Assembly: GCF_001017175.1 (NCBI RefSeq)
Contig: NZ_LCYG01000020.1
Coordinates: forward strand, 186,001-250,000
DNA from: Microvirga vignae
GTDB lineage: Bacteria; Pseudomonadota; Alphaproteobacteria; Rhizobiales; Beijerinckiaceae
Length of the DNA stretch: 64,000 nucleotides
Direction of reading: 5' to 3'
This document shows, piece by piece, positions 1,438 through 9,790 of the stretch. Under the pieces are notes generated by a model. The model was not told the origin of the DNA and did not search any database. It saw only the letters and a program-made list of their open reading frames with translations. A program made the position numbers and the translations under genes. Within the stretch, counting starts at the first letter, position 1, and each line of letters begins with the position of its first letter.

Positions 1438-2379
1438 TCAGGCAAGCTCTTCCATCCGTTGACGCTCCTTCTCGAGGTCCAGGGCAAGAGCAGGCTGTCC
1501 GAGCCATTGCGCCCGCATGGCCTCGCGCACGAGGGCTCCAACGGCCGGGGAATACGGGCGCCCGCGGACCGTCACCAGATTAACCTTGCGCCAGATTTCC
1601 GGGTCGACCATCGGCCGGGCCACGACCATCGGATGCCTGGCACAGCTCTTGGGCATGAAGCCAAAGCCGAGCCCCGCCGCGATCATGGCGAGAATCCAGT
1701 CGTCCCGCTCGCTGCGATAGACGGTGTCGCACCCAGCAAAACCATGCTCTCTCCAGATCGGCCCGGCATACCCGTTGAACTCGCAATTGATGCGGTTGAG
1801 ATAGCGCTCCCCTGTGAGGTCGCGCGGCGTGATCACGTGCCGGGATGCGAGCGGGTGATCGGGCGAGACGACAATCATGAACTGCTCCCGGAACAACGGC
1901 ATGTGGTGCAATCGCTCGTCAGGCTCCTGCCCCGGAATGCAATAGATCGCCACCTCAAGCTGGCCGTTGATGAGCCGGTTCTCCAAGTCGGCCGCGTTGG
2001 CATCGACAATTTCGAGTTCGATCCCGGGGTGTCGCGCCTGCAGGCCGCTGACGAGCCCAACGAGCTCATCAGGCTGGATTGTGCACATCACACCTAACTT
2101 CAAGGTTGTTTTCTTCAGCTTGGCGAAGTCGAAGGCCTGCCGCTTGGCTTCCTCCGCTTGGGCATAGACCTGCTCAAGATGCGGTTTCACCATGCGCCCG
2201 AGCTCTGACAGGTGCGTGTTGTTCCGCTCCCGATGGAACAGAACGCCCCCAAGTTCCTCCTCGAGCAGCTTGATCGCTCGCGTCAGGGAGGGCTGCGCGA
2301 CATTGCAGTGCTCTGCCGCCCGCGTGAAGTTGAGATCTTCGCAGACGGCGAGGAAGTATCGGATCTGGTGCATCTCCAT
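1438..2379 (-). CDS. LysR family transcriptional regulator (copy 1)
   Basis: LysR-type regulator of about 313 aa. The N-terminal winged helix-turn-helix begins MEMHQIRYFLAVCEDLNFT, with the family core AAEHCNVAQPSLTRAI at about 24-39; the remainder is a periplasmic-binding-protein-like effector domain. I chose the ATG at 2379 because the paralogue at 7612-8559 starts with the same MEMHQ; an in-frame start six codons upstream is less likely. It is divergent from the cupin gene, with palindromic operator candidates in the shared intergenic region. It is closely similar along its length to the regulator at 7612-8559, so the two probably arose by duplication. Its likely targets are the cupin/MFS/SDR genes, which is inference from position. 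Confidence 0.88.
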   Translation of the reverse strand: MEMHQIRYFLAVCEDLNFTRAAEHCNVAQPSLTRAIKLLEEELGGVLFHRERNNTHLSELGRMVKPHLEQVYAQAEEAKRQAFDFAKLKKTTLKLGVMCTIQPDELVGLVSGLQARHPGIELEIVDANAADLENRLINGQLEVAIYCIPGQEPDERLHHMPLFREQFMIVVSPDHPLASRHVITPRDLTGERYLNRINCEFNGYAGPIWREHGFAGCDTVYRSERDDWILAMIAAGLGFGFMPKSCARHPMVVARPMVDPEIWRKVNLVTVRGRPYSPAVGALVREAMRAQWLGQPALALDLEKERQRMEELA

Positions 2380-2403: not shown

Positions 2404-2418
2404 GGTGGCTATACCACC
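2404..2418. promoter_or_regulatory. Perfect inverted repeat, candidate operator
   Basis: GGTGG-CTATA-CCACC is a 5-bp perfect inverted repeat with a 5-bp spacer, 25 bp upstream of the LysR start codon in the divergent LysR/cupin region. Its size and place suit an autoregulatory LysR site, but no motif model was run. Confidence 0.35.
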
Positions 2419-2482
2419 GTCGCTGGCTCTGCCTGCATTCGGCGCTCATCCTCAACATACCGTCGAATGGTCCGTTGCAGTG

Positions 2483-2497
2483 ATAGCTTCTGGCTAT
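2483..2497. promoter_or_regulatory. LysR box, ATAGC-N5-GCTAT (T-N11-A)
   Basis: ATAGC-TTCTG-GCTAT is a 15-bp interrupted palindrome containing the T-N11-A core usual for LysR recognition sites. It lies between the divergent LysR gene (start 2379) and the cupin gene (start 2621), where an activation site would be expected. The sequence is direct observation; the assignment to this LysR protein is inference. Confidence 0.5.
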
Positions 2498-2620
2498 GGA
2501 ATTGAGGCCCACTCGGCATTTCCAATCGGCCCTTGCCTGCCCGACCATGAAGCTACCGCATCGCGCCGGCTCCACTTGGTTGCCTCCATCTGGGCGCAGC
2601 GGAACAGAGGAGACGTTGAT

Positions 2621-3118
2621 ATGCTGAACCGAATTCAAGGCGCCTTTATGCTCCGGCATGGACTCTGCGCGGTCGCTCTCCTGGCGGGTGCTGTCCTGGC
2701 CGCTCCCGCACATGCCGGGGAGTGCCCCGCTGACAAGATGAAGGCCGGCGCCCGCGCCCAGGGTGAAACCCAACCTAAAGGTGTCACAGACACGACCCTC
2801 GCGTCGATCGACCTGTCGAAGGAGAAGGTCAACCTGCAAGACCGGCAGATGCGAATCCGGAGGCTGGTGGTCCAGCCTGGCGGCGTCGTTCCCTGGCACA
2901 GCCATGAGGACCGCCCTGCCCTGATCTATGTCGTCTCGGGCACGATCGAGGAATACGCCAGCAACTGCACCGTACCGATCGTGCACAAGGCCGGCGAGGT
3001 TTCGGTCGAGAAGCTCGGCGTCCAGCACTGGTGGAAGAACACGGGCAAGGCACCGGCGGTCCTGCTGTCCTCGGATGTCTTCCACGAGATGAGGAAAGAG
3101 GACGAGCACATGATGTGA
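2621..3118 (+). CDS. Secreted cupin-domain protein
   Basis: A 165-aa protein with a cleavable signal peptide: a hydrophobic core LCAVALLAGAVLAAPAHAG ends in an AxA-type cleavage site near residue 30. It then carries a small beta-barrel cupin domain. Metal-binding motif 1 is recognisable (WHSHEDRPALIYVVSG, with His-x-His and downstream residues), and a later histidine sits in LGVQHWW. The frame is open further upstream, but the ATG at 2621 is preceded by an AGAGGAGA ribosome site and directly starts the signal peptide, so I use it. The gene heads the plus-strand run cupin-MFS-SDR-patatin-SDR and is divergent from the LysR regulator. Substrate unknown; periplasmic location predicted. Confidence 0.82.
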   Translation: MLNRIQGAFMLRHGLCAVALLAGAVLAAPAHAGECPADKMKAGARAQGETQPKGVTDTTLASIDLSKEKVNLQDRQMRIRRLVVQPGGVVPWHSHEDRPALIYVVSGTIEEYASNCTVPIVHKAGEVSVEKLGVQHWWKNTGKAPAVLLSSDVFHEMRKEDEHMM

Positions 3119-3192
3119 TCATGCCCTGACGCGTCCGGCGCCCGGCATTTCGGGCCGGCCGCCGGACCACCACAGCATTACGGGAGGTGATC

Positions 3193-4455
3193 ATGACCCA
3201 TTTCAGCCAAGATCAGCTAATGCCGATGCATGGCCATCATGCCGGCACGCTGGAGCGAACCGTTCTGATCGGCTTGATCGCCTTCCTGACGGTGGTCGAT
3301 CTGTTCGGCACCCAGGCCATCCTGCCGGCGCTGGCCAGGAGCTACGGCGTGACGCCCGCCGCCATGGGCTTCGCCGTGAACGCAACCACGATGGGCATGG
3401 CGCTCGCTTGCCTGGCGGTCGCCTACTTCAGTCACCGGATTGATCGCAGGCGCGGCATCCTGGTCAGCCTGACGGGGCTCGCAATCCCGACGGCCCTCCT
3501 CGCCGTTGCCCCCGACCTTACGACCTTCACGGTGCTGCGGATCGCCCAGGGGCTGTGCATGGCCTCAGCCTTCACGCTCACCCTCGCGTATCTCGGCGAG
3601 CATTGCAGCGCCATGGACGCCGGCGGAGCCTTCGCGGCCTACATCACCGGCAATGTGGCCAGCAACCTCTTCGGCCGGCTTCTGGCGGCAGGGTTCGCCG
3701 ATCATCTCGGCCTGCCAGCGACTTTCCTGTCTTTGGCCGGTTTGAACCTTCTCGGCGCGGTGATCGTCTATGTCTGGCTCACGCAATCCGCGATGATGAC
3801 CGCTCAGGACGAACCCGTCCGGGCACCATTTTCGATCTGGGCCGAGCACCTGCACAATCCGCTCCTGCGACCCAGTTTCGCCATCGGCTTCTGCATCCTG
3901 TTCGCCTTCATCGGCACCTTCACTTACGTGAATTTCGTGTTGGTCCGTGAGCCGATCGCGATCGATCAGATGACTCTCGGGTTCGTTTACTTCGTATTCG
4001 CGCCCTCCATCGTCACCACCCTGCTGGCAGGCCGCGCTGTGCAGCGCTTCGGGACCCGCCCCACCTTCTGGGGATCCCTGGCCGTCGCAGGACTCGGTCT
4101 GCCCCTTCTGGTCGTGCCAAGCCTCCCCGCAGTTCTGATCGGCCTGATGCTCGTTGGCGTCGGCACCTTCTTCGCGCAGGCGACCGCGACGGGCTTCGTC
4201 AGCCATGCGGCCACAACGGACCGCGGCTCGGCGAGCGGACTTTATCTCGCCTCCTACTTCTCGGGCGGACTGGTTGGGAGCGCGATTCTGGGTCAGGCCT
4301 TCGATCGCCTCGGCTGGGGAGCGTGCGTCATCGGGGTCGGTATCTCGCTCCTGGCCGCCGCACTCCTCGCAATCCGGCTGCGACCCGCATACGAGAGACC
4401 TTTGCCCGAGACGGAGCGGGATATCCCGACACCATCTCCATCCGCTCTGCGCTAG
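3193..4455 (+). CDS. MFS transporter
   Basis: Major facilitator superfamily permease of about 420 aa with roughly 12 hydrophobic helices. The loop 2-3 signature is present as YFSHRIDRRRGILVS, corresponding to the Gx3(D/R)xGRR region, and a helix-4/5 arrangement LRIAQGLCMASAFTLTLAYL follows. I start at the ATG at 3193, spaced correctly behind GGGAGGTG; a GTG two codons upstream would overlap that ribosome site. The N-terminal tail is histidine-rich (MHGHHAG). Position between the secreted cupin and the SDR/patatin genes suggests uptake or export of a small molecule handled by this cluster. Direction and substrate cannot be told from sequence. Confidence 0.85.
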   Translation: MTHFSQDQLMPMHGHHAGTLERTVLIGLIAFLTVVDLFGTQAILPALARSYGVTPAAMGFAVNATTMGMALACLAVAYFSHRIDRRRGILVSLTGLAIPTALLAVAPDLTTFTVLRIAQGLCMASAFTLTLAYLGEHCSAMDAGGAFAAYITGNVASNLFGRLLAAGFADHLGLPATFLSLAGLNLLGAVIVYVWLTQSAMMTAQDEPVRAPFSIWAEHLHNPLLRPSFAIGFCILFAFIGTFTYVNFVLVREPIAIDQMTLGFVYFVFAPSIVTTLLAGRAVQRFGTRPTFWGSLAVAGLGLPLLVVPSLPAVLIGLMLVGVGTFFAQATATGFVSHAATTDRGSASGLYLASYFSGGLVGSAILGQAFDRLGWGACVIGVGISLLAAALLAIRLRPAYERPLPETERDIPTPSPSALR

Positions 4456-4599: not shown

Positions 4600-5424
4600 A
4601 TGAACGTCGCCCTCACCCAGCCATCGACCGGTTTCGCGAGAGTTCTGGACGGCAAGGTCGCCATCATCACGGGCTCGACCAGCGGCATTGGCCTTGGCAT
4701 CGCCCGCGCCTTCGCGTCAGCCGGAGCGTCGGTGGTCATCAACGGGTTTGGCAAGCCGGACGAGATTAACGCAACGGTCGATGGCTTCCAGAATGAAACC
4801 GGCACCAAGGCGGTCTACTCCGCTGCAGACATGACCAAGCCGGACGAGATCGCCGGCATGGTGGATCTTGCCCTGGAGACGTTCGGTCGCCTGGACATCC
4901 TGGTGAACAATGCCGGCATCCAGCATGTCAGCCCGATCGACCAGTTTCCCATCGAGAAATGGGATGCGGTTCTGGCCATCAATCTCTCCTCCGCCTTCCA
5001 CACGATCCGCCTCGCCCTTCCGGCAATGCGGCGTCAAGGCGGCGGCCGCATCATCAACATCGCCTCGGCGCACGCCCTGGTCGCCTCCCCGTTCAAGGCC
5101 GCCTATGTGGCTGCAAAGCACGGGATCGTCGGTTTGACCAAGGTCGTCGCGCTTGAGACGGCGGAGCAGAACATCACATGCAACGCCATCTGCCCGGGCT
5201 ATGTCTCGACCCCGCTGGTCGAAGCGCAGATCGACGACCAGGCCAAGTCTCACGGCATCCCGCGCGAGCAGGTGATCCGGGACGTGCTCCTGGCGCAGCA
5301 GCCCAACAAGCGGTTCGCCACCGTGGAGGAAATCGGTGCCTTCGCCACCTTCCTGGCCAGCGATGCCGCAGCCTCGATCACAGGTGCTGCTCTGCCAGTC
5401 GACGGCGGCTGGACCGCCCACTGA
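4600..5424 (+). CDS. bdhA: 3-hydroxybutyrate dehydrogenase-like SDR (copy 1, substrate residues intact)
   Basis: Classical short-chain dehydrogenase, 274 aa. It has the TGSTSGIG cofactor loop near 24-31, NNAG at 103-106, and the catalytic Ser156, Tyr169 and Lys173. At a constant offset of +14 from Pseudomonas fragi D-3-hydroxybutyrate dehydrogenase, every carboxylate-binding residue known for that enzyme is kept: Gln108, His158, Lys166, Gln210 and Trp271. It should therefore oxidise D-3-hydroxybutyrate to acetoacetate with NAD. The ATG at 4600 follows GCAGGAGGA; upstream in-frame codons lack a ribosome site. It is followed 10 bp later by the patatin gene and then by a paralogous SDR, probably as one operon. 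Residue correspondence is from memory of the crystal-structure literature. Confidence 0.85.
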   Translation: MNVALTQPSTGFARVLDGKVAIITGSTSGIGLGIARAFASAGASVVINGFGKPDEINATVDGFQNETGTKAVYSAADMTKPDEIAGMVDLALETFGRLDILVNNAGIQHVSPIDQFPIEKWDAVLAINLSSAFHTIRLALPAMRRQGGGRIINIASAHALVASPFKAAYVAAKHGIVGLTKVVALETAEQNITCNAICPGYVSTPLVEAQIDDQAKSHGIPREQVIRDVLLAQQPNKRFATVEEIGAFATFLASDAAASITGAALPVDGGWTAH

Positions 5425-5434
5425 GGAGGACGTC

Positions 5435-6697
5435 ATGCTGAACCATGGGACACCTAAGGCCGACATGAGGGGCAAGGGCTCCGACGAGGCGGTGATCCGC
5501 GAACTCGAGCGGACGGGAACCTCACCCGAAGCGATCACCGAACAACGGCTCCCAGCGACGGTGCCGACCCGCTTGCGCCGGATCCCGAAGGAGCTCGGCC
5601 AGATTGTCCTCGTGCTGCAGGGCGGCGGCGCGCTCGGAGCCTATCAGGTCGGCGCCTATCAGGCTCTGCATGAGGCCGGAGTCGAGCCGGACTGGGTGAT
5701 CGGCACCTCGATTGGCGCCATCAACGCCAGCCTGATCGCAGGCAACGCGCCGGAGGACCGCATGGAGCGGCTGCGGGAGTTCTGGAGCCGCATGCAGCAC
5801 AGCCCCTGGGTAGAGCTCCTGGGGGCTTGGCCACTGGTGGGACCGCTGGCCACGAACCTGACAACCATCACGCAGGGCATTCCGGCCTTTTTCAGGCCCA
5901 ACCTGCCAGCTTTTCTCGGCCTCCAGGTGCCCCTCGGATCGGAAACCGCCGCCTACTACGATACCTCGCCTCTGGCCGAAACCCTGTCCGAACTCGTGGA
6001 CTTCGAGCGGATCAACGGGAAGGAGACCCGCCTGACGGTGGGAGCCGCCAATGTGCGCACCAGCGAGATGCGGTACTTCGACAGCCGTGACATGGATCTC
6101 GATGTCCGACACGTGATGGCATCCGGTGCGCTCCCTCCGGCGTTCCCGGCGGTGCGGATCGACGGAGATCTCTACTGGGACGGGGGCATTCTGTCGAATA
6201 CGCCGGTCGAGGCCGTGTTCGATGACAACCCGCGGAAAAACTCGGTCATCTTTGCGGTCCACATCTGGAACCCGCAGGGACCTGAGCCGGACACGATCTG
6301 GCAGGTCATGAGCCGGCAGAAGGATATCCAGTATTCCAGCCGCGCGGTCAGCCACATTGCCCGGCAGAAGCAGATCCATCGGCTCCGACATGTGATTGCC
6401 GAACTTGTGCGCCGGTTGCCGGAGAGGGAGCAAAGGACCGATGCTGTGCGGGAGCTGGCAAGCTATGGCTGCCTGACCCGCATGCATGTGGTCCGGTTGC
6501 TGGCGCCGCCTTTCGAGGGGGATGACCACACGAAGGATATCGACTTCAGTCCGCGGGGCATCCGCCGCCGCTGGGAGACGGGTTATGCCGACACGAGCCG
6601 GGTTCTGGAACTGGCGCCCTGGTTGGGCGACTTCGATCCGGTGGAGGGCTTCATCCTGCATGAGACCCGGCCCGGTGTGATGATGACGGCCGGATAA
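5435..6697 (+). CDS. Patatin-like phospholipase family protein with DUF3734
   Basis: A 420-aa patatin-fold serine hydrolase. The oxyanion glycine-rich loop is LQGGGALGAYQ (61-71), the nucleophile elbow GTSIG has Ser92, and the catalytic Asp lies in DLYWDGGILSNTP. The C-terminal third, rich in Arg and with RHVIAELVRRLPE, matches the DUF3734 extension. No signal peptide, so cytoplasmic or granule-associated. ATG at 5435, ten bases after the SDR stop, with GAGGAGGA spanning the junction, supports translational coupling. Sitting between two 3-hydroxybutyrate-dehydrogenase-like genes, it could hydrolyse a 3-hydroxyacyl ester such as a polyhydroxybutyrate oligomer. That role is inference; lipid acyl hydrolysis is the default family activity. 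Confidence 0.85.
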   Translation: MLNHGTPKADMRGKGSDEAVIRELERTGTSPEAITEQRLPATVPTRLRRIPKELGQIVLVLQGGGALGAYQVGAYQALHEAGVEPDWVIGTSIGAINASLIAGNAPEDRMERLREFWSRMQHSPWVELLGAWPLVGPLATNLTTITQGIPAFFRPNLPAFLGLQVPLGSETAAYYDTSPLAETLSELVDFERINGKETRLTVGAANVRTSEMRYFDSRDMDLDVRHVMASGALPPAFPAVRIDGDLYWDGGILSNTPVEAVFDDNPRKNSVIFAVHIWNPQGPEPDTIWQVMSRQKDIQYSSRAVSHIARQKQIHRLRHVIAELVRRLPEREQRTDAVRELASYGCLTRMHVVRLLAPPFEGDDHTKDIDFSPRGIRRRWETGYADTSRVLELAPWLGDFDPVEGFILHETRPGVMMTAG

Positions 6698-6769
6698 GGT
6701 GCCGGTCATGCGGACCGGCGCCTCTCCATCAATGAATAGACCTGGTGGAACTGCCGCAGGAGAAGCACT

Positions 6770-7594
6770 ATGAAACTCACCTTCCCCCAGCCGGCGGTCG
6801 GTGCGACGAGGATACTCGACGGCAAGGTGGCGCTTGTGACGGGCTCCACCAGCGGAATCGGCCTCGGCATCGCCCGCTCATTCGCCTCTGCGGGAGCCTC
6901 GGTCGTCCTCAACGGTTTCGGCAAGCCCGAGGAGATCAGCGACGCCGTTGACGGCCTGCAGCGTGAGACCGGCAGCAGAGTAGTCTACTCTGCTGCCGAC
7001 ATGACCAGGCCGGACGAGATCGCCAGCATGGTGGACGTTGCCCTGGAGAGCTTCAGTCGCCTCGATGTCCTGGTCAACAACGCCGGTATCTTCCATGTCG
7101 GTCCCGTTGATCAGGTTCCGGTCGACAAGTGGGATGCGGTTCTGGCGATCAATTTGTCTTCCGCCTTTCACACGATCCGCCTGGCGCTTTCAGCGATGCG
7201 CCGCCAGGGCGGGGGCCGCATCATCAACGTCGCCTCGGCACTCGCTCTCGTCGGTTTGCCGCTCACGTCGGCCTATGCGGCGGCCAAGCACGGGATCGTG
7301 GGCCTGACCAAGGTGGTCGCGCTCGAGACGGCAGAGGAAAACATCACCTGCAATGCCATCTGCCCCGGAAATGTCTGGACGCCGCTCGCGGAGGCACACA
7401 TTGCGGAGCAGGTTCAGACGCAGGGTCTCTCACGCGAGGAGGTGATCCGGAACATCCTGCTGGCCGAGCAGCCTAACAAGCGCTTTGCCATGGTCGAGGA
7501 GATTGGGGCTCTCGCCACCTTCCTGGCGAGTGATGCCGCCGCTTCGATCACGGGCGCGGCGCTCCCCATCGACGGCGGCTGGACGGCCCACTGA
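6770..7594 (+). CDS. 3-hydroxybutyrate dehydrogenase-like SDR (copy 2, substrate residues changed)
   Basis: Paralogue of the SDR at 4600-5424 with identical length (274 aa) and very high similarity. The cofactor loop and catalytic Ser156-Tyr169-Lys173 are intact, so it should be an active NAD-dependent dehydrogenase. The residues that hold the substrate carboxylate in 3-hydroxybutyrate dehydrogenase are replaced: Gln108 to Phe, His158 to Leu, Lys166 to Thr, Gln210 to His; Trp271 is kept. Automatic annotation as 3-hydroxybutyrate dehydrogenase is therefore doubtful; a bulkier or uncharged 3-hydroxy substrate, such as an ester or ketone, is plausible. It starts 72 bp after the patatin gene behind GCAGGAGAAG and ends 17 bp before the convergent LysR gene. 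Confidence 0.85.
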   Translation: MKLTFPQPAVGATRILDGKVALVTGSTSGIGLGIARSFASAGASVVLNGFGKPEEISDAVDGLQRETGSRVVYSAADMTRPDEIASMVDVALESFSRLDVLVNNAGIFHVGPVDQVPVDKWDAVLAINLSSAFHTIRLALSAMRRQGGGRIINVASALALVGLPLTSAYAAAKHGIVGLTKVVALETAEENITCNAICPGNVWTPLAEAHIAEQVQTQGLSREEVIRNILLAEQPNKRFAMVEEIGALATFLASDAAASITGAALPIDGGWTAH

Positions 7595-7611: not shown

Positions 7612-8559
7612 CTATGCTTGGGCATCGTCATCGACGGGAGCCTCAGCGGACCTGGCCTGCTCGACTGCAAGGGCACGCTCCCCGAACCAGCGCGTGCTCA
7701 TCGCCTCGCGCACCAGCGCCCCGACGGCCGGCGAGTGCGGCCGACCCCGCACGGTGACGAGGTTCACCTCGCGCCAGAACTCGGGCTCGATGATCGGCAG
7801 GCCGACCACAGCCGGATGGTTGACTGAATTGGCCGGCATGAAGGCCCAACCCAGGCCTGCCGCGACCATGGCCAACGTCCAGTCATCCCGCTCGCTCCAA
7901 TAAACGGCGGTGCATTTGACGTTCTGGGCCTGGAACACCGGATCGGCATAGCCTGCGAACTCACAATTCGTGCGATGGATGTAGCATTCCCCATCGAGAT
8001 CTTTCACCCGGACGGCGTTCCGGCTCGCCAAACGGTGCTGCCTCCCAAGCGCCGCAACGATCTGTTCTCGGAAGAGCGGAAGAACGTGGAGTCGCTCGTC
8101 CGGCTCCTTTCCGGGAATGCAGTAAATGGCGACCTCCAGGTCACCTTGGAGGAGACGCTCCTCCAGTTCCCAGGCATTGGCATCGGCCATCTTCAGCTCG
8201 ACTCCTTCATGCCGCGCCCGAACTGCACTGATGAGGCCAACGATCTGATCCGGAGCGATGGTGCACATGATGCCGAGCTTTAGGGGAGTATGCCTCAGCC
8301 TGGCGAAATCCCCCGCTTGGCGCTTGGCCTCCTGCATCTCGCGGTAGACCTGCTCCAGATGCGGGCGGACGATCCGGCCGAGCTCCGACAGGTGCGTGTG
8401 AGTACGCTCCCGGTGGAAGAGTGGCCCTCCGAGCTCCTGTTCCAACTGCCGGATTGCGCGCGTCAGGGAGGGTTGAGCCACATGGCAGCGCTCGGCCGCG
8501 TGGGTGAAGTTAAGGTCCTCGCACAGGGCGAGAAAGTACCGCACCTGATGCATTTCCAT
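7612..8559 (-). CDS. LysR family transcriptional regulator (copy 2)
   Basis: LysR-type regulator of 315 aa, close paralogue of the one at 1438-2379. The N-terminus MEMHQVRYFLALCEDLNFT and the helix-turn-helix AAERCHVAQPSLTRAI are nearly identical between copies, and the effector domains align throughout, including the NRINCEF/HRTNCEF and YRSERDDW/YWSERDDW regions. It is convergent with the second SDR. The two LysR genes lie in the same orientation at both ends of the cluster, so a duplication of a LysR-SDR unit is likely. A perfect 8-bp inverted repeat upstream (8628-8648) may be its operator. Confidence 0.88.
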   Translation of the reverse strand: MEMHQVRYFLALCEDLNFTHAAERCHVAQPSLTRAIRQLEQELGGPLFHRERTHTHLSELGRIVRPHLEQVYREMQEAKRQAGDFARLRHTPLKLGIMCTIAPDQIVGLISAVRARHEGVELKMADANAWELEERLLQGDLEVAIYCIPGKEPDERLHVLPLFREQIVAALGRQHRLASRNAVRVKDLDGECYIHRTNCEFAGYADPVFQAQNVKCTAVYWSERDDWTLAMVAAGLGWAFMPANSVNHPAVVGLPIIEPEFWREVNLVTVRGRPHSPAVGALVREAMSTRWFGERALAVEQARSAEAPVDDDAQA

Positions 8560-9259: not shown

Positions 9260-9790
9260 ATGCGCAAGCTTCTCCTTGCCTTTCTGGTTGGCGGTATTCT
9301 GGGAGCCAGTGTTGGGGTGGCCCTCGGGTTTTTCTTCTTCCCGTTCGTGTTCCCTCCCCCGGTCGCGATGGACGCCCTGAGTGAAAACGAACGTACGAAG
9401 GTAATCGCGACCGGTGAGTTCCTTCACGCCAATCCCGCCGATCCAATTCATTACGGCCGTGGACGCGTGACGGCCACCTCAAGAACGGTGTTTCTCGAGG
9501 ACGACTTCGAGGTCGGTCCCGGCCCAGCATTTCATGTCTACCTGGTGCCACGGAAGGAGGTGCGCCGATCCGCGGATGTCACCGGAACCATGTTCGTTGA
9601 CCTCGGCCCCCTGCGCGCGTTCAAGGGAAGCCAGCGCTATTCGATCCCGAGCGGAGTCGATGTGGCTCAATTCGACAGTGTCGTGATCTGGTGTCGCGAA
9701 TTTTCGGTTCTGATCTCGCCGGCTGACCTTCAATTCAAGACATCAAAGCTAAGTGCCGTAGGTGAAGCTGACCCGTCGATCGCCCGATAA
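9260..9790 (+). CDS. DM13 domain-containing membrane-anchored protein
   Basis: A 176-aa protein beginning with a hydrophobic helix (LLLAFLVGGILGASVGVALG, about 4-23), likely an uncleaved signal anchor, followed by a DM13 domain from about residue 48. DM13 landmarks are the GEFLHANPADPIHYGRG start, the FEVGPGPAFHVYLVP strand, and the C-terminal IWCREFSVLISPADL with the conserved cysteine. DM13 domains are proposed redox or haem-related electron-transfer modules exported to the cell surface; the function here is unknown. The ATG follows TTGAGGAG. It stands alone with no operon partner. Confidence 0.8.
   Translation: MRKLLLAFLVGGILGASVGVALGFFFFPFVFPPPVAMDALSENERTKVIATGEFLHANPADPIHYGRGRVTATSRTVFLEDDFEVGPGPAFHVYLVPRKEVRRSADVTGTMFVDLGPLRAFKGSQRYSIPSGVDVAQFDSVVIWCREFSVLISPADLQFKTSKLSAVGEADPSIAR

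Follow-up and report, generated by a model that had tools for sequence, protein, structure and literature searches.

A conserved paralogue of 3-hydroxybutyrate dehydrogenase in Microvirga with a replaced substrate pocket

Organization of the locus

The stretch of DNA analysed here (the window) comprises 64,000 nucleotides of contig NZ_LCYG01000020.1 of Microvirga vignae (positions 186,001–250,000). Its first 9 kb contain, in order, genes for NDH-2, a LysR-type regulator (LysR1, minus strand), a cupin-domain protein, an MFS transporter, a 3-hydroxybutyrate dehydrogenase (BDH; copy 1), a patatin with a DUF3734 domain, a second protein of the BDH family (copy 2) and a second LysR-type regulator (LysR2, minus strand). 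The features are as follows.

1438..2379, minus strand: LysR-type regulator 1 (profile match), in an ORF reaching 2397
2621..3118, plus strand: cupin-domain protein (PF07883), upstream in the cluster, start chosen inside ORF 2405–3118
3187..4455, plus strand: MFS transporter (PF07690), upstream of copy 1
4600..5424, plus strand: copy 1, canonical 3-hydroxybutyrate dehydrogenase, Q108/H158/K166/Y201/Q210 (TIGR01963, 385.5 bits, cut-off 307.05)
5435..6697, plus strand: patatin-like protein with C-terminal DUF3734, separating copies 1 and 2 (PF01734 and PF12536 above cut-off)
6698..6769, plus strand: gap between patatin and copy 2, containing an RBS-like AGGAG (sequence scan)
6770..7594, plus strand: copy 2, SDR-type member of the 3-hydroxybutyrate dehydrogenase family, substrate pocket F108/L158/T166/N201/A207/H210 (ORF, TIGR01963, alignment)
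7612..8559, minus strand: LysR-type regulator 2, convergent with copy 2 (PF00126 and PF03466)

Copy 2 is an intact ORF of 274 amino acids, its ATG preceded by the RBS-like AGGAG. It is identical to copy 1 at 210 of 274 residues (77%), and the two hardly differ over the C-terminal stretch that ends in DGGWTAH. No consensus promoter or terminator was found in the gap separating patatin from copy 2, shuffled sequences yielding 0.6 and 2.4 by chance; in M. lotononidis this gap is about 20 bases. A hairpin 3' of patatin, with −30.3 kcal/mol for the window sequence, was discarded, being weaker in the five other copy-2 loci that were folded.

The two regulators, 65% identical and both on the minus strand, flank the cluster. 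Both are also present in two loci without copy 2, L025 (M. lupini) and L027; in a third such locus, L026, LysR1 was the only one found. Beyond LysR2 the window encodes a protein with a DM13 (electron transfer) domain (9260–9790); M. lupini (L025) has it close to the cluster as well. In two copy-2 loci, L021 (6826–9364) and L024 (6923–9371), three additional ORFs separate copy 2 from LysR2. Judged by eye, they resemble cytochrome b561, MsrP and MsrA (methionine sulfoxide repair), a hint of an oxidative-stress context. The cluster sits on a 1.13-Mb plasmid in M. lotononidis. A check of plasmid location gave four RepC matches in the window's genome, none of them on the window's contig.

The substrate pocket of copy 2

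If the two copies share 77% of their residues, where do they differ? We aligned both to the BDH of P. fragi (1wmb) with phmmer. The alignment is gapless, query residues 16–273 falling on chain residues 2–259, and it confirms the constant +14 offset on which an earlier, sequence-only reading of this DNA had relied. That reading had named an alignment with a characterized BDH structure as a check on the residue differences it listed, and 1wmb bears them out. Copy 1 keeps Gln108, His158, Lys166 and Gln210; in copy 2 these are replaced by Phe, Leu, Thr and His, respectively, while Ser156, Tyr169, Lys173 and Trp271 are retained. Asn128 is also kept in both copies. The earlier list omitted two further changes in copy 2, Y201N (Trp187 in P. 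fragi, Tyr in copy 1) and V207A, together with the sequence-near changes S111G, F116L/V, F165L and V170A/T.

These replacements recur. The four canonical residues (QHKQ) are present in 117 of 123 distinct family proteins, a set collected by similarity to copy 2 rather than as a random sample of BDHs, and the remaining six are the copy-2 orthologues. All six distinct orthologues have Phe, Leu and Thr at 108, 158 and 166, and a basic residue at 210 (His in four, Arg in two); this recurrence across six genomes disfavours a sequencing error. Asn201 and Ala207 are likewise present in six of six. Among the 117 QHKQ proteins, position 201 is Tyr in 104 and Phe in 13. When ten copy-1 and six copy-2 sequences are compared, 17 of the 274 columns have no residue common to the two sets, nine of them fixed in both. 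All four positions named by the earlier reading fall within these 17 columns, for which a uniform draw gives P = 1.0e-5 (the sites are not truly independent). The catalytic Ser156, Tyr169 and Lys173 are unchanged in all six orthologues, and Asn128 of the tetrad is kept in five, being Asp in the copy from Pseudaminobacter soli HC19.

Might copy 2 have no substrate of its own, and serve as a pseudo-enzyme that tunes copy 1 from within mixed tetramers? BDHs are tetramers, and the adjacency of the genes, their 77% identity and the nearly identical C-terminus fit such a partnership. A non-catalytic subunit, however, would have no need of the Ser, Tyr and Lys that all six orthologues preserve, and the identical pocket changes in all six also count against it. 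We consider this explanation improbable.

Comparison with known enzymes

Copy 2 scores 331.6 bits against TIGR01963 (NCBIfam, 3-hydroxybutyrate dehydrogenase), above the cut-off of 307.05, and all six orthologues match this model at E 1e-70 or better. It has the features of a classical SDR: a Rossmann fold with TGxxxGIG, the residues N128/S156/Y169/K173, and matches to PF13561 and PF00106. The top solved match to its AlphaFold2 model (mean pLDDT 92.6, pTM 0.90) is 1wmb, with Z 40.6, rmsd 1.3 over 260 residues and 52% identity in the structural match; several other BDHs are tied within 1 of it. The modelled fold is thus the BDH fold, and the fold does not name the substrate. Nor does a homology search with residues 150–240 of copy 2, which match BDHs first and then mixed SDRs, much as in copy 1. 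With the 3-hydroxybutyrate dehydrogenases (EC 1.1.1.30; TIGR01963; P. fragi 1wmb/1x1t, S. meliloti 3v2h) copy 2 has in common the fold, the length, Asn-Ser-Tyr-Lys and Trp271. It differs from D-3-hydroxybutyrate dehydrogenase in all four substrate-binding residues, Gln94, His144, Lys152 and Gln196 in P. fragi numbering, and in the aromatic residue at 187, which lines the substrate site: the orthologues have F-L-T-(H/R) and Asn201 in six of six. PMC13390443, citing Feller et al., describes these four residues as critical.

What do such replacements do to activity? A guide is provided by the BDH CF3HBD (5YSS), which also acts promiscuously as an amino-acid cyclase and is 53% identical to copy 2 in the structural match. 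Its description (PMC6265244) gives the residues near docked 6-aminocaproate as Q91, S139, V140, H141, K149, Y152, W184, V190 and Q193. We used this published list, which maps at an offset of 17, as the definition of the pocket of copy 2. Six of its nine residues differ between copies 1 and 2 (P = 1.7e-6 for a uniform draw, 2.5e-5 for one within codons 101–274), while the catalytic Ser and Tyr stay; where CF3HBD has Q91/H141/K149/W184/Q193, copy 2 has Phe/Leu/Thr/Asn/His. The mutant table of the same paper adds position 189, whose equivalent is Leu in both window copies. On 3-hydroxybutyrate, the mutants Q91A, H141A, W184A and W184E of CF3HBD had no activity, K149A had 8.9%, Q193A 18.4% and V190A 98.2% (PMC6265244). 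Given this last value and the presence of Ala207 in 12 QHKQ proteins, V207A is weak evidence. In the same table Q91E kept 115% and Q193E 212%, and V140A was dead (PMC6265244). Since Ala stands naturally at the equivalent of V140 in 123 of 123 family proteins, the table transfers imperfectly.

Could copy 2 then still act on D-3-hydroxybutyrate, as a dehydrogenase whose kinetics are poor or altered? Its score above the TIGR01963 cut-off and the unchanged fold of the model are consistent with this, as are the activity of Q91E and Q193E and the failure of the V140A result to hold for the natural family. On the other hand, the three positions at which alanine mutants of CF3HBD are inactive all carry unlike residues in copy 2, and 117 other family proteins retain Gln, His and an aromatic residue at those positions. 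That copy 2 remains a BDH of this kind seems to us unlikely.

Does replacement of the four residues abolish the binding of an acid? The basic residue 210 of copy 2 has counterparts in R-2-hydroxypropyl-CoM dehydrogenase (R-HPCDH, 2cfc) and L-KDFDH (8xwk), which have a basic residue at the equivalent position 196 (P. fragi numbering, equal alignment spans), their overall similarity to copy 2 being much lower. According to PMC11199699, in R-HPCDH Arg196, together with Arg152, interacts with the sulfonate, and in L-KDFDH the substrate is recognised at its C1 carboxyl, C2 hydroxyl and O5 by Arg148, Arg192 and Arg214 jointly, Arg192 being the residue at the 196 position. Position 152 is also Arg in both enzymes but Thr in copy 2 (Thr166 in six of six orthologues), and Arg210 occurs in two of six; anchoring of the acid by Arg at both 152 and 196 is thus not found in copy 2. 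The sequence-only reading had held that the substrate-carboxylate-binding residues were lost. They are indeed gone, but a simple loss of acid binding does not follow, since position 210 is His in four orthologues and, in two, the Arg that is equivalent to a ligand of R-HPCDH and L-KDFDH. An acid may thus still be the substrate; by analogy with these enzymes, it could be held from the side of residue 210, the old cage serving as a hydrophobic wall.

Distribution, origin and selection

Which genomes carry copy 2? At a threshold of E 1e-130, 9 of 48 genomes of the genus give a match, and five of these nine have both copies: the window's genome, M. tunisiensis, M. zambiensis, strain KLBC 81 and M. 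lotononidis. The sixth copy 2 is that of P. soli HC19 (L022 6001–6810), a strain classed in Phyllobacteriaceae; transfer or a misnamed strain are possible explanations. The gene order is copy 1, patatin, copy 2 in all six loci, and the window's patatin is 85.2–90.5% identical to those of the other five. Four genomes (M. lupini, M. sesbaniae, M. massiliensis and one further of the genus) have copy 1 followed by patatin, with a single match. The match to the patatin of M. lupini (L025 6836–7954, no copy 2) spans only residues 1–373 of 420, and its end may be altered. The MFS gene precedes copy 1 in those Microvirga-group loci whose flank extends that far.

The search for related loci kept 78 from the best 80 of 270 candidates. 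Across the order, 193 of 397 genomes gave a match, and the 29 further loci examined from that search were all QHKQ. Plasmid records gave 149 matches, one record being examined among 25 of the matches listed. No wider family of the Phe-Leu-Thr type was found in this survey of the best 80 of 270 candidates, 29 order-wide loci and one plasmid record. The literature within our coverage, outside which most subscription journals lie, yielded no report of such a BDH variant, and no paper naming both Microvirga and hydroxybutyrate dehydrogenase.

In a quick tree that included outgroups, the copy-2 proteins fall into a single clade (SH-aLRT 100), nested in a larger one that unites copies 1 and 2 of the Microvirga group (92); the trees resolve little of the branching within this group. 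The copy-2 clade is recovered in a protein tree without the 17 divergent columns (98/94) and from codons 101–274 without the divergent codons (86/84), and is weak in a DNA tree without those 17 codons (74/30). With codons 1–100 the copy-2 sequences do not form one clade. Over its first 100 codons (L023 6001–6300), copy 2 of KLBC 81 joins copy 1 of the same strain (98/95 in a rough bootstrap), a pattern that suggests gene conversion of the coenzyme part, the pocket residues staying of the copy-2 type.

Is copy 2 nevertheless decaying? Pairwise Nei–Gojobori estimates, made with our own script, give a mean ω of 0.124 over 15 copy-2 pairs (range 0.06–0.17), compared with 0.074 over 15 copy-1 pairs from the same six genomes (of ten copy-1 sequences in the set). 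Within copy 2, dS is 0.53–1.14; there are no stops, and the frame is intact in six of six. Copy 2 is under purifying selection, somewhat looser than that on copy 1 (ω about 1.7-fold higher). Its faster evolution and the Asp at tetrad position 128 in HC19 are as partial decay would give, but that copy 2 is a functionless, decaying duplicate is highly improbable, given six ORFs intact despite this dS and with ω so low, the same residues fixed in all six, and a KLBC 81 copy that retains the copy-2 pocket although over its first 100 codons it joins the copy 1 of that strain.

Function of copy 2

We conclude that a change of specificity after duplication is the probable reading of these sequences: copy 2 would be a selected, NAD-dependent SDR that is no longer a normal D-3-hydroxybutyrate dehydrogenase. 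The tree and the gene order support an origin of copy 2 within the Microvirga group, through duplication of the BDH gene in a LysR-cupin-MFS-BDH-patatin cluster. By sequence, it has retained the coenzyme domain and the Asn-Ser-Tyr-Lys machinery (Asn in five of six), its substrate pocket being altered as a set and then held. By family precedent, Tyr169 would accept the proton and Ser156 would hold the substrate oxygen while hydride passes to NAD. Judged by the homologue mutants, D-3-hydroxybutyrate would no longer be a substrate, since Phe/Leu/Thr have taken the place of the Gln/His/Lys cage and Asn that of the aromatic wall at 201. Nor need copy 2 supply that activity: the window's genome has two QHKQ BDHs (copy 1 and L003) and two PhaC_N matches, so that D-3-hydroxybutyrate use and PHB metabolism could be covered without it.

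What, then, might copy 2 oxidize or reduce? More speculatively, its substrate is probably a bulkier or more hydrophobic hydroxy or keto compound. It may be an acid, with the conserved basic residue 210 holding its charge, and the neighbouring patatin hydrolase may supply it. The earlier proposal of a live dehydrogenase with a different substrate agrees with the frame intact in six of six, the ω of 0.12, the retained Ser-Tyr-Lys and, in CF3HBD, the inactive mutants at three positions; the esters it had put forward for assay are not favoured over a larger acid. A bolder version, which we hold to be rather unlikely, is that the pocket has been turned round. Phe108, Leu158 and Thr166 would then take the hydrophobic part of the substrate, and Asn201 and the basic residue 210 its polar end, so that a recent natural duplication would have given new regio- or stereochemistry, for example towards (S)- or longer-chain 3-hydroxy acids.

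Copy 2 is a conserved variant within an enzyme family already known, rather than a system of a new kind. It offers a compact natural experiment: two near-adjacent genes, 77% identical, in which the pocket has been exchanged and the catalytic residues are fixed, relatives with copy 1 alone serving as controls. There is a precedent for a misnamed enzyme of this sort in mammalian BDH2/DHRS6 (2ag5), once considered a hydroxybutyrate dehydrogenase and now, according to PMC11199699, a 4-oxo-L-proline reductase, although its match to copy 2 is far weaker than that of 1wmb (E 3.2e-36 versus 4.2e-80). The suspicion, already voiced from the sequence, that the standard product name is wrong is probably justified: the NCBI family model TIGR01963 still names copy 2 a 3-hydroxybutyrate dehydrogenase although all four binding residues are gone, and the name is probably a false transfer. 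Models of PHB and ketone-body pathways that rely on this automatic name may be misled by it.
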